Assembly: GCA_017436815.1 (NCBI GenBank)
Contig: JAFSCI010000057.1
Location: 1 to 35,165 of the forward strand
DNA: 35,165 nt
From: Clostridia bacterium
GTDB taxonomy: Bacteria > Bacillota > Clostridia > Oscillospirales > Acutalibacteraceae
Reading direction: 5' to 3'
A model generated the notes under the pieces. That model did no database searches and was not told where the DNA came from. It was given only the letters and a program-made list of their open reading frames with translations. A program made the position numbers and the translations under genes. Every line of letters starts with the position of its first letter. Within the stretch, counting starts at the first letter, position 1. Below are positions 6,026 to 32,562 of this stretch, piece after piece.

Positions 6026-7708
6026 ATGTCTTTTTGTATATCTAAAGATGGTGTTAACTTTACGCTCGAATGCGATTCGCTAACAAAAAACGGTGATTTG
6101 TACGAGCTTAATATTAAAGGCAACGTGCCCGTTCCTAGTCTTATTAAGGGTGACAGACTTTTACTGCCAATAGACGAGGGCGTTGCTTTGTCAGCCGACG
6201 GCGAGTATGAAAAAGCAGACCTTGATTTTAATAATTTAAGCAGTCCGTTTTGTAACCGTGAAGCCACTATGGGTATGTTTATAATCGAGCGGGATAACAA
6301 GTTTTTGCTTATTGCCATTAAAGACTGCGCAAATTCGGCCTACTCGCTTACCAAAAAAGGCGGCTTGTTCTCACTTTCGGTAACAAACGCAGAGCCTGTT
6401 TCGGTTTATTACGGCGTGTTCGATAATCTGCTTAGTGCTTGCAAAGCCTACCGCAATATTAAAAACCCCAACGCTATTCCTTTAAGTGAGAAGCTTAAAA
6501 ATAACCCCAATATTGAAAATCTTATTGGCGGCGGCATTTTCTGGATATGGAACGATAATTATGACGAGGTAATGTATTCACCCAACAATACCTTTCTAAG
6601 CGCTGCTACGGGTGAAGATTTGCTAAAGGTTTGCGGTGAACTAAAAACCAACGGCATAAATAAAGCTATGATAGGCATTTTCTTCGAAAAAGACAGTAAA
6701 TACGTAGAGCCTATTTATAAAAATTTTGGTTACATAGCCACCCAGTACGACAATTATAATGATTGCTTAAACCCTGCGCTTTTAGATCTTGTTCCAAGCA
6801 ACCGAGCAAGAAATTGCGATTATACGGCCAGACGTATGAAGGACTATCCACAAGGTGTACGCCGGGATAAAAACGGCAACCCCGTTAACGCCTGGGCATT
6901 AAAGGGCTTTGACGGTAAAATGTATAACCAAAATCAGCTTTGTCCTGCCGTTGCAAGAGACAGAATGAAAACCGAGGTTGCCGAAATTCTAAAGCAGTAC
7001 CCGTATTATAAGGGCAGATTTATAGACGTTTACGGAACCTCGCTTGCTGATTGCTTTGATGAAAATCACCCGATTACACTCAAAGAATGTATTTGTGTTA
7101 AGTCGCAGGCCTTTAATAATTTAACCGATATGGGTCTTATTGCAGGCACAGAAGACGGCTTTGACGATATTATAGACAGCCTTGTTTATTCCGAAGGTAT
7201 GCATTCGCCCGCACCATTTAGAATTATAAATTCGGGCCGCAGACACGCAAATATGTTTAATGAAACAGAACAAGCCTTTGCCCAAAAACAAATGCTGAAT
7301 CCTGCGCTAAGGGTACCGCTTTGGCAAATGGTTTACCACGAATGTTTAATTACCTATTCGTATTGGGGTGACTCAACCGACGATAGTGTAAAGCAGGTTG
7401 ACGATAAAATACTTTTTGCCTGCCTTTTTGGTTGCCCGCCGATTTATTCGTTCTCTATGAGCGATTTTGAGACCGTAAAACCTCTGATTATAAAAAGCTA
7501 TAAAAAAATATCGGAAGTGCACAGCAAGGTTGCTCTTTTACCTATAACCGAATACACGGTTTTAAAGGACGATTATTCCTTGCAAACCACGGTTTTCGGT
7601 AACGAGTACAGGGTAGTTGCAAACTTTGCCAATGAACCTGCAGAATATCTGGGTACAACTATTGCGCCTAAAGATATTTTGTTTATTAAAATACAAAAAG
7701 CAGAGTAA
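6026..7708 (+). CDS. Glycoside-hydrolase-like protein (GH101/GH129-like barrel, family uncertain)
   Basis: A 560-residue protein without signal peptide, so probably cytoplasmic. About 1-150 looks like a beta-rich N-terminal domain. About 170-470 looks like a TIM barrel, with WIWNDNYDEV, FIDVYGT (D334) and GTEDGFDD (E376) as candidate catalytic carboxylates, then the segment PLWQMVYHECLITYSYWGDS, a pattern I associate with uncharacterised relatives of endo-alpha-N-acetylgalactosaminidases. The C-terminus (about 500-560) is a small beta domain. The family assignment comes from motif memory and is not certain. It has a TAGGTG ribosome site. The gene's stop lies inside a hairpin shared with the convergent AraC gene. 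Confidence 0.55.
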   Translation: MSFCISKDGVNFTLECDSLTKNGDLYELNIKGNVPVPSLIKGDRLLLPIDEGVALSADGEYEKADLDFNNLSSPFCNREATMGMFIIERDNKFLLIAIKDCANSAYSLTKKGGLFSLSVTNAEPVSVYYGVFDNLLSACKAYRNIKNPNAIPLSEKLKNNPNIENLIGGGIFWIWNDNYDEVMYSPNNTFLSAATGEDLLKVCGELKTNGINKAMIGIFFEKDSKYVEPIYKNFGYIATQYDNYNDCLNPALLDLVPSNRARNCDYTARRMKDYPQGVRRDKNGNPVNAWALKGFDGKMYNQNQLCPAVARDRMKTEVAEILKQYPYYKGRFIDVYGTSLADCFDENHPITLKECICVKSQAFNNLTDMGLIAGTEDGFDDIIDSLVYSEGMHSPAPFRIINSGRRHANMFNETEQAFAQKQMLNPALRVPLWQMVYHECLITYSYWGDSTDDSVKQVDDKILFACLFGCPPIYSFSMSDFETVKPLIIKSYKKISEVHSKVALLPITEYTVLKDDYSLQTTVFGNEYRVVANFANEPAEYLGTTIAPKDILFIKIQKAE

Positions 7709-22432: not shown

Positions 22433-22462
22433 AGAAAAAATATTTGCTTTAAGGTGGAAGAT

Positions 22463-23152
22463 ATGAGCATTATAATAGTTGATGATGAAAAAGAAATCGC
22501 CGACTTGGTTGATGTTGTTTTAAAAAATGAGGGGTATGAAACCCTTAAGTTTTATGATTCAGGCGATGCATATAAAGAAATACAAAACAATAAAAACATA
22601 GATCTGGCCATTCTTGATGTTATGATGCCCGGTATTGATGGATTCGAACTTTGCAGAAAAATCCGAGAGAGCTATACATATCCAATTATTATGCTGACTG
22701 CCCGAGTGGAAGATGTTGATAAAATAACGGGACTTAGCATAGGAGCCGATGATTATGTGACAAAGCCGTTTAATCCGCTCGAATTATTAGCGCGTGTAAA
22801 GGCGCAGCTGCGCCGTTATAAAAAGTATGATGCTATCACAACGTCGGGGGTAGAGGTGTTTGAGAACAACGGCCTTGTTATTAACAAGCAGGAACACACG
22901 GTCTTACTTTTCGATGAAAATATAAATCTTACACCTACCGAATTTGATATACTTTGGTTACTTTGCGAAAATGCGGGTAACGTGGTTTCGTCTGAAAGCA
23001 TATTCGAAGCGGTTTGGAAAGAAGATTATCTTGACAGTAACAATACCGTGATGGTTCATATTCGTAGAATACGTGAAAAACTCAAAGAGCCGCCCAAAAA
23101 TCCTAAAATTATTAAAACAGTATGGGGAGTAGGTTATAAAGTTGAAAAATAG
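22463..23152 (+). CDS. OmpR/PhoB-family response regulator (VanR-like)
   Basis: A 229-residue DNA-binding regulator. The receiver domain has D7/D8, phospho-acceptor D52 (LAILDVMMPG), T79 and K101 (VTKPFNP); a winged helix follows (TPTEFDILWLL; VMVHIRRIREKL; WGVGYKVEK). Start ATG 22463 is chosen because AAGGTGG lies seven bases ahead; the GTG at 22454 overlaps that site. It overlaps the histidine kinase gene by 11 bases. Similar to VanR-type regulators of cell-envelope functions, but no van ligase genes are nearby. Confidence 0.94.
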   Translation: MSIIIVDDEKEIADLVDVVLKNEGYETLKFYDSGDAYKEIQNNKNIDLAILDVMMPGIDGFELCRKIRESYTYPIIMLTARVEDVDKITGLSIGADDYVTKPFNPLELLARVKAQLRRYKKYDAITTSGVEVFENNGLVINKQEHTVLLFDENINLTPTEFDILWLLCENAGNVVSSESIFEAVWKEDYLDSNNTVMVHIRRIREKLKEPPKNPKIIKTVWGVGYKVEK

Positions 23153-24203
23153 TGCTATTCAAAGATATATAACACAGGTTTTGGTGTATACGATTGCATT
23201 TGTTTTGTTTATCATCATAATGGATAACGTTTTTAATGGTGCGGTAGTTGATTATCTTTATGATATTCTTCCGTATAACTTGTTTTATATGATCAACAAT
23301 AATCGCACGTTCACCTCATTTTTTATATATGTATTAGGGCTGGTAATAATATCTGTTATTTATGTTTTCAAGCTAAGCAAATTACTTAAACTGGCAAGCA
23401 CTTCTATTTTAGAAGAAGAACCTGAAATTTTTGGATCCGATTGTCCCGATGAACTTAAAGATTTTAGTCAAAAACTAAAGGATTTCAAGTTTGTACTCAA
23501 AGAAAACGAACGGGCGAGAACGATTGCAGAGCAACAAAAAAATGACTTAATAGTATATTTGGCTCACGATTTAAAAACACCCTTAACGTCGGTTATAGGA
23601 TATTTAAGCTTGCTTGAGGAGGCGCAAGATCTGCCTATAGAACAGCGGGCAAAATATACCTCGGTTGCACTAGATAAAGCCTACAGATTAGAACAACTCA
23701 TAAACGAGTTTTTTGATATAACCCGTTTGAATCTACATACCATTGAGGCGCAAAAATCAAAGGTTAATTTAACAATTTTATTGGTACAGGTTTTAAACGA
23801 ATTCTTTCCAATGTTTGAAGAAAAAAAGCTTAATATTGTGCAAGAAATCGAGCCGGAAATAGTTTTATTTGCCGATGCCGATAAATTGGTTCGTGTTTTC
23901 GATAACCTGTTCCGTAATGCCGTTAATTACAGTCATAACGGCACCGATATAATTTGCTCAGCCGTAAAAGAAGAAAACCAAATAGTAATACGGGTTAAAA
24001 ATAAAGGAGATGATATCCCTAAAGAAAAACTTGAACGCATTTTTGATAAATTTTATCGTGTTGATAATTCAAGAAGAACGGCCACGGGCGGTTCGGGATT
24101 AGGTCTTGCCATAGCAAAGCAAATTATAGAGCTTCATAACGGCACAATTACCGCTTCTTGTAATGATGGTGTAACGGAATTTGAGGTTATTCTGCCCTCG
24201 TAA
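23142..24203 (+). CDS. Sensor histidine kinase (VanS-like), TTG start
   Basis: A 353-residue membrane kinase with two membrane helices (about 11-28 and 57-76) and a short outside loop of roughly 28 residues, as in VanS-like sensors. The dimerisation motif is YLAHDLKTPLTSVIGYL with H142. The ATPase domain has the N box RNAVNYS (N near 259) and GGSGLGLAIAKQI. The start codon is TTG 23142 with GGAGTAGG ahead of it, inside the regulator's last codons. The small outside loop suggests sensing within or at the membrane. It phosphorylates the upstream-encoded regulator. Confidence 0.93.
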   Translation: MKNSAIQRYITQVLVYTIAFVLFIIIMDNVFNGAVVDYLYDILPYNLFYMINNNRTFTSFFIYVLGLVIISVIYVFKLSKLLKLASTSILEEEPEIFGSDCPDELKDFSQKLKDFKFVLKENERARTIAEQQKNDLIVYLAHDLKTPLTSVIGYLSLLEEAQDLPIEQRAKYTSVALDKAYRLEQLINEFFDITRLNLHTIEAQKSKVNLTILLVQVLNEFFPMFEEKKLNIVQEIEPEIVLFADADKLVRVFDNLFRNAVNYSHNGTDIICSAVKEENQIVIRVKNKGDDIPKEKLERIFDKFYRVDNSRRTATGGSGLGLAIAKQIIELHNGTITASCNDGVTEFEVILPS

Positions 24204-24240
24204 GAAAAAATTAAGAAAGCCTTAAAAGAGACGTAAAACA
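24201..24240 (+). promoter_or_regulatory. Four 11-base-phased TAAGAAA-like repeats upstream of the C39 protease gene
   Basis: TAAGAAA (24201), TAAGAAA (24212), TAAAAGA (24223) and TAAAACA (24234) are spaced exactly 11 bases apart and end at the expected -35 position of a TAAAAT -10 box (24259). OmpR-family regulators bind head-to-tail repeats with one helical turn between them, so this is the likely target of the adjacent response regulator. The first repeat includes the kinase stop codon. Confidence 0.65.
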
Positions 24241-24296
24241 AAAAAGTTTCCGTTGCGCTAAAATATTCTTATCGAAACAAGATAGGAGTATTTTTT

Positions 24297-25127
24297 ATGA
24301 AAAGACGAAGAAAAGGTAAATATACGTACGGTTGCCTGATAATGTTGCCATACATAATTATGGTTGCACTTTTAATAACAGTAATGTTTTCGTTAGCAAG
24401 GTGTGTAGGCAAAAATATAGATGCTCCCAACACACGCACGAATTCTTCACAGTGCGACTCTTTAGACGCTAACGCCATAATAGAAGAATTTGCCAAAAAC
24501 AACAATTTGCAAACAAACGAATGGCCTGATGAGCTGGTTGAATTATTGGATAAAAATCCCGAAACAAAGAGCTTTGTTTTAAATTACCCGTTTAAGAAAG
24601 ATGAAAAGTTTAAAATTGATTTAAGCGAGTATAAAAACAGCAAAAAAGTTCCGTTGTTTATGCAGTGGGACGAGCGTTGGGGATACAGTAGGTATGCAGG
24701 AGATTTAATGGGTCTTACAGGTTGCGGCCCGACCTGTCTTTCTATGGTTAGTGTTTATCTTTTAAACGATACCAAATATACTCCAAAATATGTAGCCGAT
24801 TTTTCCGAAAGAAACGGATATAGCGTATCGGGAAACGGCAGCTCCTGGAGTTTGATATCGAAAGGCGGGAAAAAGCTGGGGCTGGACGTAATAGAAATAC
24901 CTCTTGATGAAAACAGAATTATAAAGAATTTAAAGGTCGGTAATCCCATTATTTGTATAATGGGCCCCGGTGATTTTACTACGACGGGGCACTTTATAGT
25001 AATGACCGAATATGTTGACGGTAAAATTAAAGTTAATGATCCTAACAGCAAAACCCGATCCGAAAAGCTTTGGAATTTGCCTGATATCAAAAATCAAATC
25101 CGTAATTTGTGGGTGTGCAGAAAATAA
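24297..25127 (+). CDS. Membrane-anchored C39-like cysteine peptidase
   Basis: A 276-residue protein with a basic N-terminus (KRRRKGK), one membrane helix (about 12-34), a linker, and a C39_2-like papain-fold domain facing outside (about 115-276). Candidate catalytic residues are Q123 in FMQWDERWG, C143 in TGCGPTCLSM, H232 in TGHFIVM and D248 in VNDPN. Unlike the peptidase of the nearby exporter it is not fused to a transporter. Possible roles are processing of peptides or remodelling of surface proteins. Its promoter carries phased repeats, so it is probably the output gene of the two-component system. TAGGAG ribosome site. Confidence 0.85.
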   Translation: MKRRRKGKYTYGCLIMLPYIIMVALLITVMFSLARCVGKNIDAPNTRTNSSQCDSLDANAIIEEFAKNNNLQTNEWPDELVELLDKNPETKSFVLNYPFKKDEKFKIDLSEYKNSKKVPLFMQWDERWGYSRYAGDLMGLTGCGPTCLSMVSVYLLNDTKYTPKYVADFSERNGYSVSGNGSSWSLISKGGKKLGLDVIEIPLDENRIIKNLKVGNPIICIMGPGDFTTTGHFIVMTEYVDGKIKVNDPNSKTRSEKLWNLPDIKNQIRNLWVCRK

Positions 25128-25177: not shown

Positions 25178-27431
25178 ATTGATGATTATATAATTCGAAA
25201 TATTTGCCTTGTTGACGCAATAGTTGTTCGTGTGTTCCTATTTCAACGATAGATCCTTTATCCATTACTATAATTTTGTCACAATTTTTAATTGTGCTTA
25301 ATCGGTGGGCAATAATAATACAGATCATTTCTTTGTTTAAATCAAAAATTGTATCTTTAATGGCGTTTTCTGTTATGGTATCAAGATTACTTGTTGCTTC
25401 ATCAAATATAATTAGTTTAGGATTTCGCAATAAGGCTCTTGCAATAGCTATGCGTTGCCTTTGACCGCCCGAAAGATTTTTGCCGTTTTCGTCAAGAAAA
25501 GTATCGTAACCGAATGGTAAGTCTTGTATAAACTTATCTGCTTTTGCTAATTCGCAAGACTTAATAATCTCTTCGTCGCTGACCGTGTTGCAACCTAATA
25601 TAAGATTATTTTTTACTGTATCAGAAAACAGAAATGTGTTTTGATCAATATATGAAATTGCATCTCTAATATAATCTGTTTCAATAGAAGATATTTTAGC
25701 TCCGTCTATTAAAATGCTGCCGTTTTCAGCCTCGTAAAACTTTAGCAATAGTTTTGCAAGAGTTGTTTTTCCGCATCCGCTTTCACCAACAATGGCAACT
25801 TTTTCACCTTTTTTAATTTCAAGTGAAATATTTTTTAAAACTAATTCATGATTACCATAGCGAAAATCTACGTTCGAAAATTCAATGGTGTTAAATGCTA
25901 TGTTAGCATCTTGTTTTATCTGTTTGCTTTCGACGGGAATATCCAATATATCGTTAAGCCTTTCGGCTGCAATAATAGCAGTCTGCATCATAGGTTGCAG
26001 GCTAATAAGATTTTTTATAGGCTCTGTAAAATATGCGAGCAGAGCGTAAAAGGTTATAAGAGAGCCTATAGTAACCGTATTAGCCAGTACCATTCCAAAG
26101 CCAACCCAAAGAATTATTACAATTCCGACAAGCTCGATTAAATCGCAAATACTGTCTTGCGAAATCGAAATAATGTTGTCCTTGAAAGCAGCATTAATAA
26201 GTTTTTGAAATTTAAAGCTGTTCTTGCTTTTGGCAGAGTTTTCTGCTTTGTGCGATTTTAGTGTTTCAATTCCGTCAATAGATTCCTTTAAATATGACTG
26301 AACTTTTGCATTGTTTTCCATAACTTCACGGTTAATATTTGCAAGAGGTTTTCTATAGCACAAAACTATAGCAGCATAAAGTAATATAACGACCAAAGAT
26401 ATATAAAACAATGTAGCATTTTCTAAAAATAAAATAACTCCACAGGCGATCACCATAAAAGAGTCTAATATTAGGGTAAGTGTAGCACCGGATACAGCTT
26501 CTCTAACTGCATCGGCATCGGAAAAACGAGATAAATATTCACCTGTTTTACGAGTGTTTACTGCAGACAGTGGCAAGTCTATAATATGGTCATAATACGG
26601 AATCATAAGCCGGATATCGATTTTCTTTGATACAAGAGATATTAAATATCCTCGCAAAAACTGTATTAGTGCTTGCAGAATATAAAGTCCAATCAAGCAA
26701 ATGAAAAAGATATTGAAATTTGAGGCGTTGTCAGTTAAAAAGCCGATAATTTCATCAAAAACATTTTCGCTTTCGGCTACAGTTTCTTCTGTAATATGCT
26801 CATGTTCATCGGTACAGTCGTCCTCGCAGATAATTGTTTCATTGACTGTATAAAAATCATCAATAATAATTTCAAACACAAAAGAGCCTATGATACCGAT
26901 CAAAGATATTATCAAAGACAATGCTATCACTGATGAGAGTTTTGTATATTGTCCTTTAAGCAAAGAAAAGAATTTTTTAAAACTGCCCTTTGTATAATTA
27001 CCTTTTTGAAAATTTTCAGTTTTTTCAAAGGTTACAATGTAGCCATTCCATAACTCTGCGAATTGTTCTGCCGTATATCTAATCTTGCCTTTTGCAGGGT
27101 CGGCTATGATGAACTTGTTGTTTTTTATGTTCAATACAACAACAAAATGTTGCATGTAGTCTTCGTTAATAATGTGGGCAATAAATGGGAATTTTATGTC
27201 ACCTTTTTTTACACCATCAAGCAACTCGTCCATATTTCCCGAAAGGGCATCTGCTTGAAAACCGATTTTTTGCGCAGCATCACAAAGACCGTAAAGGTTT
27301 GCACCGTTTTGGTCTGTTTTTGTAAGTTCTCTATATTTAGAAATTGGGTGCTTTAACCCATAATGCGATGCTATCATCGAAAGGCAGGCCGCACCGCAAT
27401 CCCGCTCGTCGTGTTGTTTTGTTGTTTTCAT
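25176..27431 (-). CDS. Peptidase-containing ABC exporter (C39 peptidase-TMD-NBD) for a double-glycine peptide
   Basis: Cuts a leader after Gly-Gly and exports the core peptide. The 751 residues comprise: C39 peptidase (1-130) with Q6, C12 (RDCGAACL), H95 (YMQHFVVV) and D111 (IADP); a membrane domain (about 160-470); and an ATPase (about 505-751) with Walker A GESGCGKTT, signature LSGGQRQRIA and Walker B IIFDEATSNLD. Catalytic residues look intact. The outside loop between the first two helices (about 191-240) is long, acidic and carries C202, C206, H210 and H212, which is unusual. The gene lies downstream of the peptide gene on the same strand, so it is the dedicated exporter. GGAG ribosome site. 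Confidence 0.94.
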   Translation of the reverse strand: MKTTKQHDERDCGAACLSMIASHYGLKHPISKYRELTKTDQNGANLYGLCDAAQKIGFQADALSGNMDELLDGVKKGDIKFPFIAHIINEDYMQHFVVVLNIKNNKFIIADPAKGKIRYTAEQFAELWNGYIVTFEKTENFQKGNYTKGSFKKFFSLLKGQYTKLSSVIALSLIISLIGIIGSFVFEIIIDDFYTVNETIICEDDCTDEHEHITEETVAESENVFDEIIGFLTDNASNFNIFFICLIGLYILQALIQFLRGYLISLVSKKIDIRLMIPYYDHIIDLPLSAVNTRKTGEYLSRFSDADAVREAVSGATLTLILDSFMVIACGVILFLENATLFYISLVVILLYAAIVLCYRKPLANINREVMENNAKVQSYLKESIDGIETLKSHKAENSAKSKNSFKFQKLINAAFKDNIISISQDSICDLIELVGIVIILWVGFGMVLANTVTIGSLITFYALLAYFTEPIKNLISLQPMMQTAIIAAERLNDILDIPVESKQIKQDANIAFNTIEFSNVDFRYGNHELVLKNISLEIKKGEKVAIVGESGCGKTTLAKLLLKFYEAENGSILIDGAKISSIETDYIRDAISYIDQNTFLFSDTVKNNLILGCNTVSDEEIIKSCELAKADKFIQDLPFGYDTFLDENGKNLSGGQRQRIAIARALLRNPKLIIFDEATSNLDTITENAIKDTIFDLNKEMICIIIAHRLSTIKNCDKIIVMDKGSIVEIGTHEQLLRQQGKYFELYNHQ

Positions 27432-27446
27432 GAAAAATCTCCACTA

Positions 27447-27475
27447 AAATCGAGATGACTATTCCATCTCGATTT
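27447..27475 (-). promoter_or_regulatory. Intercistronic hairpin between peptide and exporter genes
   Basis: An 11-base perfect stem (27447-27457 with 27465-27475), seven-base loop. Only TTTT follows on the minus strand, so it is probably a leaky terminator or RNA-processing/stability hairpin that keeps peptide mRNA above exporter mRNA, as in many bacteriocin operons. Confidence 0.65.
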
Positions 27476-27483
27476 ATATTGAA

Positions 27484-27669
27484 TTACTTATATTTTACAA
27501 TACCAAAGGCTGCTTTCGCTGCTTCCCAAGGGTGTGCAGAAATAGCGTGTAAAACATGTCCAGTTTTGGTCAAACTATATTTTTTGATACCCTTTGATTT
27601 ACAAATTAAGCACCTGTAGTATGCACCGCCTTCAACATTGCGCATTTCCACAGCATTAACTTTTGTCAT
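27484..27669 (-). CDS. Double-glycine-leader peptide with zinc-finger-like core (bacteriocin or signal candidate)
   Basis: A 61-residue precursor. The start is ATG 27669, eight bases after a strong AAGGAGG; a reading from 27723 would place that site inside the gene. The leader MTKVNAVEMRNVEGG (15 residues) fits the double-glycine rule: V-12, E-8, M-7, V-4, G-2, G-1. The predicted 46-residue core starts AYYRCLICKSKGIKK and is basic. It has C20-x2-C23 followed by H38, H41 and H46, with Y18, Y31 and L33/L40 placed rather like a C2H2 zinc finger. I know no named bacteriocin that it matches. The C39 exporter is next downstream and an XRE regulator is divergent. No immunity gene is evident. Confidence 0.82.
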   Translation of the reverse strand: MTKVNAVEMRNVEGGAYYRCLICKSKGIKKYSLTKTGHVLHAISAHPWEAAKAAFGIVKYK

Positions 27670-27755
27670 TAATTTCACCTCCTTTTTAACAGTTCTGTAA
27701 TGCAAGAAAAGCGGAATAGTCACTTTTCAGGCACCCCAGGAACCATATTTCTTAA

Positions 27756-27825
27756 ATTATACACCCATAGTTCCTATTTGTCAACAAAAATGGGAAGTAT
27801 AATTCCTATATAGAACAATATAGGA
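27756..27825. promoter_or_regulatory. Divergent promoter/operator region between peptide and XRE genes
   Basis: Minus strand: TTGACA (27779-27784) and TATAAT (27756-27761), spacer 17, driving the peptide gene. Plus strand: TATAAT at 27798 for the regulator. TTCCTAT occurs at 27771 and 27803, and TCCTATA/TATAGGA form an inverted repeat (27804-27810, 27819-27825) that reaches the regulator's ribosome site. These are likely operator sites for the XRE protein. Confidence 0.7.
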
Positions 27826-27834
27826 GGAAGAATA

Positions 27835-28164
27835 ATGCTTGTATTCGATTTTAAGGTTATTGGTAATAAACTATATGAAACAAGAAACAAAAAAATTATG
27901 AGCAGGGCAGAGGTTGCGGAGAAAGCAGAGCTTTCGGAACGTACCTATGCTGATATTGAACGTGGCAGTGTTAATATGCGACTCGAAACATTGCTAAAAA
28001 TATGTAGAGCTCTAAATATTACACCTAATGATATTTTGACTATTGAACAGCCAAACACATTTTCCGAATCAGACATTGCTGAAATAATTAATAAATGCTC
28101 TGAATCAGAAAAACAAACGGCTTTGAATTTATTAAATGTTTATTTGGATTCATTAAACAAATGA
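27835..28164 (+). CDS. XRE-family (HTH_3) transcriptional regulator
   Basis: A 109-residue protein. A Cro/CI helix-turn-helix (about 8-66: MSRAEVAEKAELSERTYADI and LLKICRALNITPNDIL) is followed by a short helical tail (about 75-109) that may dimerise. It is divergent from the double-glycine peptide gene and shares a control region with it, so it is the likely regulator of peptide production and of itself. AGGAGGAA ribosome site. Confidence 0.92.
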   Translation: MLVFDFKVIGNKLYETRNKKIMSRAEVAEKAELSERTYADIERGSVNMRLETLLKICRALNITPNDILTIEQPNTFSESDIAEIINKCSESEKQTALNLLNVYLDSLNK

Positions 28165-29486: not shown

Positions 29487-29816
29487 TATGATATAATAAC
29501 CTCAAACCGACGGCGGTGGAACGCCGCCGAAACGCATTCGTGTTTGAAAATTTGACAATTTTCGTTTGAGAACATTGAATCATTAAACCTGCCGCGTTGC
29601 GACGCGGCAACTGCTCTGCAGTTTCAAAGGCGCTGCCTTTGGGTTTATGATATAATAACCTCAAACCGACGGCGGTGGAACGCCGCCGAAACGCATTCGC
29701 GTTTGAAAATTTGATAATTTTCGTTTGAGAACATTGAATCATCAAACCTGCTGCGTTGCGACGCGGCAACTGCTCTGCAGTTTCAAAGGTGCTGCCTTTG
29801 GGTTTATGATATAATA
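29487..29816. repeat. 159-base tandem duplication of a structured (multi-hairpin) element
   Basis: Two full units (29487-29645 and 29646-29804) plus the first 12 bases of a third. They differ at five positions, all C/T. Each unit folds into two branched parts: outer stem CTCAAAC/GTTTGAG (29501, 29564) around three hairpins, and AAACC/GGTTT (29585, 29642) around three hairpins (TGCCGCGT, AACTGC and CAAAGGC stems). The three substitutions in stems (29541/29700, 29593/29752, 29631/29790) all keep pairing. The repeat start TATGATATAATA holds a -10-like box; the third partial copy sits just before the lipoprotein gene. No coding gene lies in this 430-base gap. Confidence 0.9.
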
Positions 29817-29833
29817 AAGCAAAGGTGATATTT

Positions 29834-30384: not shown

Positions 30385-32562
30385 ATGGCAATTTTTAAAA
30401 TAAAAACGCTAGACAAGATTGATATAGAAAAAAAGCCTAGAGTGTATTTTACCTGTCATCCGGACGATTTCGATAAATATTTTAAAAAAGTTTGCGAAGA
30501 TATCTTCAAAACACACGATTGTGCGATTTATTATACCGAAGATATGAACGAGGTTATACCTGAAGATGAAAAACAAGTAGATCTCGGCCGTAACAACCTG
30601 TTTGTTGTTCCTGTTACTTTTAAGTTATTGACTACACCAAACAGAGCAATGGACGACGATATTCCTTACGCAGTACAAGAACATATTGCCGTATTGCCCA
30701 TTATGATGGAACACGGAATAGAAGAGTTTTATTCTGATCCTCATAAATTTGGCGAGTTGCAGTATATAAATCCATTTAGCACAGATTTAACGGAAATTTC
30801 TTATGAAGAAAAGCTAAAGAATTATTTAGAGTCTGTTCTTGTCAGCGATGAGACGGCAAAGCGTATTCGTGCGGCGTTTGATACATATATATTTTTGAGC
30901 TACCGTAAAAAGGATCGCAAATATGCCAATGAGCTAATGCGACTTATTCATAGTATTCCTGAGTGCCGTGACGTAGCAATTTGGTTTGATGAGTTTTTGA
31001 CTCCGGGTGAAAGCTTTAAAGATAACATAAGCAAGATGTTAAATAACAGTAAGCTGTTTGCTTTGCTTGTTACACCTAATTTGTTGGAAGAACCAAACGG
31101 CAAGCCTAATTTTGTTATGGGCGAAGAGTATCCTGCGGCTAAACAATCTGATATTGATATTCTGCCTGCCGAAATGGAATATACCGATAAAGCCGCTCTT
31201 GAGACAAAATTTCAGGGGTTGCCAAACTGTGTTAATCCTTATGATAATGAAGCGTTTAAGACACGCCTGCTTGAAACCATTACAAAACTTGCAAACCAGT
31301 CCAGCGATATGCCCGAACACAACTTCTTGATAGGTCTTGCTTATCTTGACGGCATAGACGTTGAAGTTGACCGTGAACGAGGTGTGCAGCTTATATTGTC
31401 GGCTGCAGAAGCCGGACTGGTAGAGGCAATGAAAAAATTGTGCTATATATACCGTACGGGTAAAGGTGCAAAATGCGATTGTAAAGAAGAAGTCAAGTGG
31501 GCCGAGAGAATAGTGGATTACTATGTTCAGCAATGCGGAAATGAGCATACGGACACGCTTGATGCCTTGGAAAATCTTGGATTCGCTTACGATGATTTAG
31601 GCAATTATCATAAAGCGTTGCAAATAAAAGAACAAGTGTACGAACAAAGTTGTAAAGTTTTGGGCGAGAAGCATTTAGACACGTTATCACGCTTAAATTC
31701 GTTAGTATCAGTTTATGATAAATTTGGTTACAGTGGATCGCAGATGTGGGCAAAAAACTTTTTATATAAGAAATTTGGAAAATTTTTAGGAGAAAAAAAG
31801 CTAAAAGAGACTTTATCGCAGTGGAATGCCGTAACAGATTATCATGATATATCCGATTACCGTAAACCGCTGGAGCTCGGCGAGAAAGCATATACACAGC
31901 TTTGTGAGATTTTAGGAAAAGAACATCCCCAAACGCTTCATGCACTTAGAAATTTATCAAATGTTTATACTGGCTTGGGTGATTTTAAGAAAGCGTTGCA
32001 ATTAGCTGAAGAAATATATGCACTAGCTTGTAAAATTTGGGATGAAGAAGATCCGTACATGCTACCATATTTGAATAATCTTGCGGTATTAAACGGCTAC
32101 GTGGGTGATTCGCAAAAAGAGTTATTGTTAGAAGAGAAGGTATATAAACAAGCTTGTGAAATTTTTGGAGAAGATGATTTTGAAACCATAATATTTATGA
32201 ATAATTTAGCAACAACGTATGATGAAATAGGTGAACACCAAAAAGCGTTAACGTTGATAGATAAGGCGTATACTCAAAGTTGTAAAATTTCGGGTGAAAG
32301 CCATCCTAATACAATAACAATTCTGGGCAATATGGCAGGTGTTCATAAAGAATTAGGCAATAGGAAAAAAGAATTAGAGTTAAGAGAACGGGTGTATGAA
32401 TTACGATGTAATGTTCAAGGTCAAGAACATCCTAATACAATAAGCGCGCTTGATTGTTTAATGGGTGCGACTTTTAAAAACTGGAAATTTTTAAAAGGAG
32501 CGAAGCTCTTTGCTAAATATTACAAGGCGGTGACTCGTTCGCTATTGGGAGAGCGAAAGTAA
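30385..32562 (+). CDS. TIR-domain protein with TPR repeats
   Basis: A 725-residue protein without signal or membrane segments. About 17-130 looks like a degenerate TIR-like domain (RVYFTCHPDDFDKYF). About 165-300 is a TIR domain: DTYIFLSYRKKD, IWFDEFLTPGESF, LFALLVTPNLLEEP and GEEYPAAK, where the glutamate could be catalytic. About 310-370 looks like a Sel1-type repeat (EAGLVEAMKKL), followed to the C-terminus by kinesin-light-chain-like TPRs of about 42 residues (GNEHTDTLDALENLGFAYDD, GKEHPQTLHALRNLSNVY, GESHPNTITILGNM). TIR domains in bacteria often cleave NAD or signal in antiphage defence; TPRs would bind a partner. Function here is unproven; no other defence gene is adjacent. Confidence 0.85.
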   Translation: MAIFKIKTLDKIDIEKKPRVYFTCHPDDFDKYFKKVCEDIFKTHDCAIYYTEDMNEVIPEDEKQVDLGRNNLFVVPVTFKLLTTPNRAMDDDIPYAVQEHIAVLPIMMEHGIEEFYSDPHKFGELQYINPFSTDLTEISYEEKLKNYLESVLVSDETAKRIRAAFDTYIFLSYRKKDRKYANELMRLIHSIPECRDVAIWFDEFLTPGESFKDNISKMLNNSKLFALLVTPNLLEEPNGKPNFVMGEEYPAAKQSDIDILPAEMEYTDKAALETKFQGLPNCVNPYDNEAFKTRLLETITKLANQSSDMPEHNFLIGLAYLDGIDVEVDRERGVQLILSAAEAGLVEAMKKLCYIYRTGKGAKCDCKEEVKWAERIVDYYVQQCGNEHTDTLDALENLGFAYDDLGNYHKALQIKEQVYEQSCKVLGEKHLDTLSRLNSLVSVYDKFGYSGSQMWAKNFLYKKFGKFLGEKKLKETLSQWNAVTDYHDISDYRKPLELGEKAYTQLCEILGKEHPQTLHALRNLSNVYTGLGDFKKALQLAEEIYALACKIWDEEDPYMLPYLNNLAVLNGYVGDSQKELLLEEKVYKQACEIFGEDDFETIIFMNNLATTYDEIGEHQKALTLIDKAYTQSCKISGESHPNTITILGNMAGVHKELGNRKKELELRERVYELRCNVQGQEHPNTISALDCLMGATFKNWKFLKGAKLFAKYYKAVTRSLLGERK

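Follow-up and report, generated by a model that had tools for sequence, protein, structure and literature searches.

A double-glycine peptide of gut Clostridia with a putative metal-binding core and a candidate kissing-loop pair around its cistron

Leaders of the substrates of C39 peptidases end in Gly-Gly (GG) and carry hydrophobic residues at positions −4, −7 and −12 and Glu at −8. Among bacteriocins, the pediocin-like (class IIa) peptides combine an N-terminal Cys module, which holds a disulfide and a YGNGV box, with a helix-like tail. Classical C2H2 zinc fingers conform to the consensus C-x2-4-C-x12-H-x3-5-H. Long-range RNA contacts are known from plant-virus RNAs, in which 5' and 3' kissing loops form, and from Staphylococcus icaR, in which the 5' and 3' untranslated regions pair.

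Here we describe a locus in which elements of these systems appear to be combined. It lies in a stretch of 35,165 nucleotides from a Clostridia bacterium (contig JAFSCI010000057.1), referred to below as the window (Table 1). We judge it slightly better than an even bet that this locus encodes a cationic, bacteriocin-like peptide held by a metal staple, and that a long-range kissing loop in the RNA controls its cistron.

Table 1. Positions of the features discussed, numbered along the window
Feature	Position	Strand	Basis
GG-leader peptide gene, 61 aa	27484..27669	-	ORF list and sequence
Finger-like module, C20-x2-C23-x14-H38-x2-H41, then x4-H46	27532..27612	-	sequence, alignment
Sigma-70 promoter, TTGACA-N17-TATAAT, 12 of 12 matches	27784-27756	-	
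Hairpin 1, mRNA 5' leader, 8-bp stem, loop ACUAUUC	27706..27728	-	
Hairpin 2, 11-bp stem, loop GAAUAGU	27447..27475	-	
C39 peptidase/ABC exporter, 751 aa, TIGR01193	25176..27431	-	profile match, motifs
Exporter insert CEDDCTDEHEH, between membrane helices 1 and 2	26796..26828	-	helices by eye
Divergent XRE (HTH_3) regulator, 109 aa	27835..28164	+	Pfam

The peptide gene, its exporter and its neighbors

The 61-residue open reading frame is a real gene, as judged from its ATG start at 27669, the ribosome-binding site AGGAGGTGA at 27675-27683 and a promoter that matches the sigma-70 consensus throughout. The leader of the precursor, MTKVNAVEMRNVEGG, has Gly at −1 and −2, Val at −4, Met at −7, Glu at −8 and Val at −12, and so conforms to the rule for C39 substrates given above. 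An earlier note on this DNA had described a clean Gly-Gly leader, which these positions bear out, and had placed C20, C23, H38, H41 and H46 correctly. Cleavage is predicted after G15 and would release a core of 46 residues that begins with A16 and has a net charge of +8, with His not counted. No modifying enzyme is present among the six neighboring proteins that were scanned with Pfam, and a small cationic core, here of 46 residues and +8, without a modifying enzyme is what is found in class II bacteriocins. Searches of Pfam, NCBIfam and PHROGs gave no significant match to the peptide.

The adjacent exporter matches TIGR01193 above the cut-off (E 5e-189). It contains the Peptidase_C39, ABC membrane and ATPase domains, with Walker A, signature and Walker B motifs, and its residues Q6, C12, H95 and D111 are retained in 18/18 aligned exporters (18 of 20 loci, with L095 and L099 left out). 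The dedicated C39 exporter proposed earlier is therefore intact in its active-site motifs. Judged from the anatomy of the genes, export of the peptide by this protein appears close to certain. An insert of the form C-x3-C-x3-H-x-H occurs in the exporters of the window, L032 and L033, that is, in three of the 18 that were aligned; the corresponding insert in L058 is acidic and has no Cys, and the other 14 are without the motif. By analogy with the architecture of the family, this loop would lie on the outside or exit face of the membrane.

A Pfam HTH_3 match confirms the divergent XRE regulator that had been noted on the other side of the peptide gene. XRE-type genes stand divergently ahead of the peptide in 6/7 loci by Pfam, and none is seen in L059. 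In the window protein, Pfam shows the HTH domain only. Close behind the exporter, no same-strand gene with a start signal is found in the window, L032, L033, L058 or L088, whereas L059 carries a 159-residue gene 14 nt downstream (L059:4142-4618) that has no Pfam match at 0.01 and may encode an immunity protein or a regulator. No clear immunity gene was found in these operons, the operon ends with the exporter in five of the six intact loci, and the immunity gene that accompanies class II bacteriocins in their operons is thus not seen here.

Several other features lie in the surroundings. Convergent to the exporter, at 22454-25127, the window holds what by eye are a response regulator and a histidine kinase, together with a C39_2 peptidase-like protein (Pfam); no such genes were seen next to the exporters in L032 and L033. 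At 29495-29830, a tandem direct repeat of ~160 bases, in two copies by eye, separates two lipoprotein-like genes, and at 30385-32562 a large protein appears by eye to combine a TIR-like domain with TPR repeats behind it and might have a role in defense. Type IV pilus-like genes lie upstream in L058 (by eye).

Relatives and the Cys/His pattern of the cores

Searches with the peptide itself reach nothing beyond the window. Among 148 genomes the only match was its own genome, and the genome contigs, phages and plasmids gave no other locus or record. The L066 peptide found nothing in phages and plasmids. Viral contigs gave nothing with the peptide profile or with the exporter, and one distant locus with the exporter profile. 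Relatives were instead reached through the exporter, except for L047, which came from a weak match to the peptide profile. Scanning the genome contigs with the exporter yielded L032 from goat colon (75%) and L033 from roe deer colon (79%), together with L034 from goat cecum (81%), where the contig ends before the peptide. Searches of the order and the class, which used the first 192 residues of the exporter or a profile made from them, added L052/L058 (G541), L053/L059 (G317) and L066/L088 (G935). In L047/L060 (G394), the exporter gene is broken. These four genomes represent four families, none of them that of the window, and a search among the relatives of all four found no further group member. 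The resulting exporter group comprises seven loci with eight GG peptides, two of which (L059a and L059b) are in L059.

The group is rare. Counting its own genome, the exporter threshold was passed by 7/394 genomes of the order and 20/341 of the class, and among the genomes that passed it, peptides with C-x2-C were found only in the own genome, G541, G317 and G935. The highest likeness of a plasmid exporter was 43.7% among the best 15 of at least 5000 records, and that of a phage exporter 41.5% among the best 15 of 546. Three exporters from the window's own family (L110, L111 and L112; 35 to 43% over their length) accompany GG peptides that have no C-x2-C and were set aside, and the weak profile matches L048-L050 were rejected on reading, as they are not GG peptides.

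The earlier note had proposed a core with two Cys and two or three His residues arranged as in a zinc finger. Taken alone, the window is only suggestive of this, because 1.3% of 20,000 shuffles of its core reproduce the pattern C-x(2-3)-C-x(8-35)-[HC]-x(2-8)-[HC]. The relatives indicate that it is more than chance, because C-x2-C falls within the first 22 core residues of 7/8 peptides of the exporter group versus 0/28 others (Fisher, 1e-6). The exception in the group is L047, which has C-x3-C. The wider form, C-x(2-3)-C...[HC]-x(2-8)-[HC], likewise separates the sets by 7/8 to 0/28, with L052 as the peptide that fails. The 28 comparison peptides were chosen by eye from regular-expression hits beside less related exporters; plainly non-leader hits were left out and identical copies were counted once. 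Net charge also differs, from +3 to +10 in the cores of the group compared with −2 to +2 in 27/28 of the comparison cores.

Cys or His residues are also abundant, though arranged differently, in two members of the comparison set, L110 and L089. The L110 peptide (L110:9391-9657) has a Cys/His-rich core of +8 without C-x2-C beside a 43% exporter, and that of L089 (L089:362-598) has seven His and one Cys in its core next to a long-branch exporter. A third GG peptide, L091:2937-3128, looks pediocin-like (KYPNGLYC...) and comes from a genome with three C39 exporter hits.

In an alignment with L059b, L053 and L066, the residues C20, C23, H38 and H41 of the window occupy invariant columns. BLASTP aligns the window peptide with L059b at 39% over 59 residues, with both Cys and both His matched. 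Three core homologues from two other families (L059a, L059b and L066) share the arrangement C-x2-C-x13-H-x3-H, from which the x14 and x2 spacings of the window differ; neither version conforms to the C2H2 consensus. The recurrence that the earlier note had looked for beside C39 exporters is thus present, twice in L059 and once in L066, for the two Cys and two His residues, and the third histidine, H46, is not conserved in the core homologues. That note had also asked about homologues that keep the leader and lose these residues: L032 and L033 keep both the leader and C-x2-C, with other His and Cys residues. Because these two cores differ in this way, the three-histidine pattern is not a signature of the family. 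Across the peptide group, the sequences point to a metal site as the shared feature, and they support the finger-like reading for cores of the window type, though not in its exact three-histidine form.

Libraries of known domains add little to this picture. No zinc family in Pfam or NCBIfam matches the window peptide, the curated zinc-finger models give only sub-threshold hits for L059b and L066, and a PDB profile search returned RING-finger hits at E 0.26 to 0.51, which are not significant. The lack of a zinc family match, the roughly 1 in 80 shuffles that reproduce the window pattern and the drift of ligand sets between relatives would also suit an ordinary GG bacteriocin or pheromone, in which the Cys pair forms a disulfide or stays free and the histidines are incidental. 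We consider this explanation unlikely, though it carries real weight: C-x2-C stays constant in seven of the eight peptides while the remainder of the core varies, and a C2H2-like spacing is retained in three homologues.

The cores appear to be of two types. Likeness was scored by local alignment against 1,000 shuffles. The window core resembles both L059a and L059b (0/1,000 shuffles as good in each case) and, weakly, L066 (39/1,000), and these four cores have in common C-x2-C, a His pair and an aromatic tail. The second type is represented by L033, whose core is like those of L052 (0/1,000) and L032 (4/1,000) and not clearly like that of the window (116/1,000). Cores of this type (L033, L052 and L032) have C-x2-C-G knuckles, which take the form CPxCG in L033 and L052, with other His and Cys partners in a zinc-ribbon-like arrangement; the L052 core departs from the four-ligand pattern. 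For L032, L033, L052 and L047, likeness to the window core is not significant.

The exporter and leader of the window are closest to those of L033 and L032. The histories of core and exporter therefore disagree, because the kin of the core are in L059 and L066 and those of the exporter and leader in L033 and L032. It is as if cores had been exchanged or remade under a constant leader. When 30 exporters were placed on a tree, two changes sufficed for the six rows with intact C-x2-C loci, a number as low as this being reached in 0/500 shuffles, but only 16% of bootstrap trees set these rows apart on one side of a branch. A fully supported branch splits off 23 of the 24 other rows; L089 is a very long branch. 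Separately, the two finger-type GG peptides of L059 lie in tandem ahead of one exporter (L059:6991-7167 and 7271-7465), an arrangement that resembles two-peptide bacteriocins.

Hairpins that enclose the peptide cistron

Two hairpins flank the peptide gene, and their loops are exact 7-nt complements of each other. Hairpin 2 begins 8 nt past the peptide stop codon and ends 15 nt ahead of the exporter ATG. Folded alone, hairpin 1 reaches −12.9 kcal/mol (z −4.0) and hairpin 2 −13.9 kcal/mol (z −4.7), although the folding program adds a G-U pair that reduces the window's loop 2 to 5 nt. The minimum-energy fold of a 350-nt stretch contains both hairpins; its total energy is not unusual (z −1.5). Hairpin 1 of L033, folded alone, does not stand above shuffled sequences (z −0.9).

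To assess how often such an arrangement occurs, we scanned for two hairpins with pairing 7-nt loops that lie 100 to 450 nt apart, in 1.08 Mb over both strands, taken from the 73/117 sources that remained once contained duplicates and three later loci had been removed. Each stem had to score at least 5.5 and the two together at least 13.5, a threshold that was fixed after the first pairs had been noticed by eye. Exactly five pairs were obtained, and 5/5 enclose the peptide gene (in the window, L032, L033, L058 and L060), so that 5/7 loci of the exporter group have one. In the scan that had first found these pairs, before overlapping loci were removed, shuffled sequences gave one pair in 7.46 Mb. 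With single stems of at least 4 and a total of 13.5, shuffles gave four pairs in 5.4 Mb, which corresponds to 0.8 expected versus five seen. Relaxing the total to 12 gave seven seen versus 2.2 expected, and to 11, eleven versus 5.8. The location of all five pairs at one gene is a stronger argument than the excess of pairs. When the window's own 350-nt transcript was shuffled, such a pair arose once in 20,000. When the gap is set to 222-252, the exact loop pair is present at a single site of the own genome and in 2/63 other genomes; the reversed control was found in 20/64 genomes.

The stems covary extensively. Pairs were counted with a gap-free script, as MAFFT had gapped the joined hairpins. 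Pairing is retained in 37/40 cells of stem 1 and 50/50 of stem 2, and changes on both sides occur in 8/8 and 10/10 columns, respectively. Arms swapped across loci pair on average at only 4.75/8 positions in stem 1 and 5.05/10 in stem 2. All five loci have loops that pair at 7/7 positions, and among them are one compensatory change from U-A to C-G (L058) and one U-G pair (L033). Because the loops are nearly constant, such that swapped loops still pair at 6.8/7 positions on average, covariation of the loop contact itself rests on one pair. Of the loci beyond these five, L088 keeps hairpin 1, with the loop AUUAUUC, and its hairpin 2 is strong but has a non-matching loop, and in L059 neither hairpin of the pair was found.

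Among known RNA families, Rfam gave just one sub-threshold microRNA hit when region 27380-27900 of the window was searched, and in six loci it detected only SRP RNA, tRNA and a c-di-GMP-I riboswitch. The riboswitch (L052:1124-1208, 70 bits) lies between hairpin 1 and the start of the GG peptide; because of it, at least one relative has a regulatory RNA in this leader. Hairpin 2 was also considered as a terminator, but the window shows no terminator-like site, although a T run closes hairpin 2 in L058.

Most likely, a loop-loop contact would connect the 5' leader with the end of the peptide cistron and may influence its expression. The main rival is that the hairpins are DNA recombination sites, with inverted 7-bp cores and palindromic arms, by which the peptide gene would be inverted or exchanged. 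As DNA the loops are indeed one word in inverted orientation, and differing cores under similar leaders are what a cassette exchange would produce. We disfavor this interpretation, and hold it to be very improbable, because the arms are complementary only to themselves and share no sequence between sites or loci, the loops of L033 are unequal as DNA and still pair as U-G, and the orientation is the same in 5/5 loci. No recombinase was noticed by eye among the ORFs of the window.

Proposed function and comparison with known systems

Under the explanation that we favor, the operon would produce a small, cationic peptide that folds around a metal ion, and would export it. The C39 domain would cut the precursor after Gly15, and the 46-residue peptide would leave the cell. 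C20, C23, H38 and H41 might hold the metal, most likely zinc, as a staple that takes the place of the disulfide of pediocin-like bacteriocins, and the C-terminal part, PWEAAKAAFGIVKYK, could form a membrane-seeking helix. On the message, the leader hairpin and the hairpin after the stop codon would kiss through a 7-bp loop-loop contact, closing off the peptide cistron and perhaps setting the ratio of peptide to exporter or the stability of the message. That the peptide acts as a narrow-spectrum, bacteriocin-like agent has, in our estimate, about an even chance.

Because no gene follows the exporter in 5/6 intact loci, a signal and a metal carrier also have to be weighed. As a signal, the peptide would inform the population, and the XRE protein might provide feedback; the divergent XRE-type gene in six of the seven loci, the lack of a clear immunity gene and the c-di-GMP-I riboswitch just ahead of the L052 peptide are consistent with such a role. 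We rate it as rather improbable, given that the XRE protein of the window shows no domain besides its HTH, that no recurring receptor gene lies beside the loci that were read and that the cores are long and variable for a pheromone. Still less probable, and by a clear step, is a secreted zinc- or copper-binding carrier that serves uptake or starves neighbors. Metal-like residues both in the peptide and, in three loci, in the exporter loop would fit it, as would five intact operons of six without an immunity gene, but the regulator is of the XRE type, no uptake system is seen among the neighbors scanned with Pfam, and strongly cationic cores with a helix-like tail look directed at membranes. 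Taken more broadly than the favored bacteriocin-like reading of this one locus, the data may tentatively be read as a family of secreted metal-finger peptides of gut Clostridia that have exchangeable cores under a constant leader and exporter, a cistron that a kissing loop turns into a closed unit under separate control, and an exporter with a metal site of its own at the exit, a proposal that we think possible but hold with less than even confidence.

A metal staple in place of a disulfide would suit anaerobes, and metal-stapled peptides would add a class for which the libraries searched contain no profile. The hairpin pair would offer a compact, testable case of long-range loop-loop control in a bacterial operon, for which the natural compensatory change in L058 can guide the design of loop mutants. 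In the part of the literature that our search covered, which includes PMC13289728 and PMC12648078, we found no zinc-finger GG peptide and no kissing loop beside a bacteriocin gene.

Like other C39-exported peptides, among them class II bacteriocins and GG pheromones, the window peptide has a GG leader, an adjacent TIGR01193 exporter and a small cationic core; it is set apart by the finger-like C-x2-C...H-x2-3-H core, the hairpin-enclosed cistron and the lack of a clear immunity gene. With pediocin-like bacteriocins it shares an N-terminal Cys module followed by a helix-like tail, but YGNGV is absent and the cysteines are two residues apart and have His partners. The cores recall C2H2 fingers, with C-x2-C and then a His pair in the window type, and zinc ribbons, with CPxCG knuckles in L033 and L052. 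Unlike either, they are joined to a GG leader and an exporter and have no significant Pfam match, and the window spacing is off that of a C2H2 finger by one or two. As in plant-virus kissing loops and icaR, a 5' leader would pair over a long range with a distal element, whereas the pair described here lies inside a bacterial operon, with covarying stems around one cistron. Thus, GG peptides and their exporters are already known; within the searches made, the novelty lies in the finger-like cores, the exporter insert and, most of all, the enclosed cistron.
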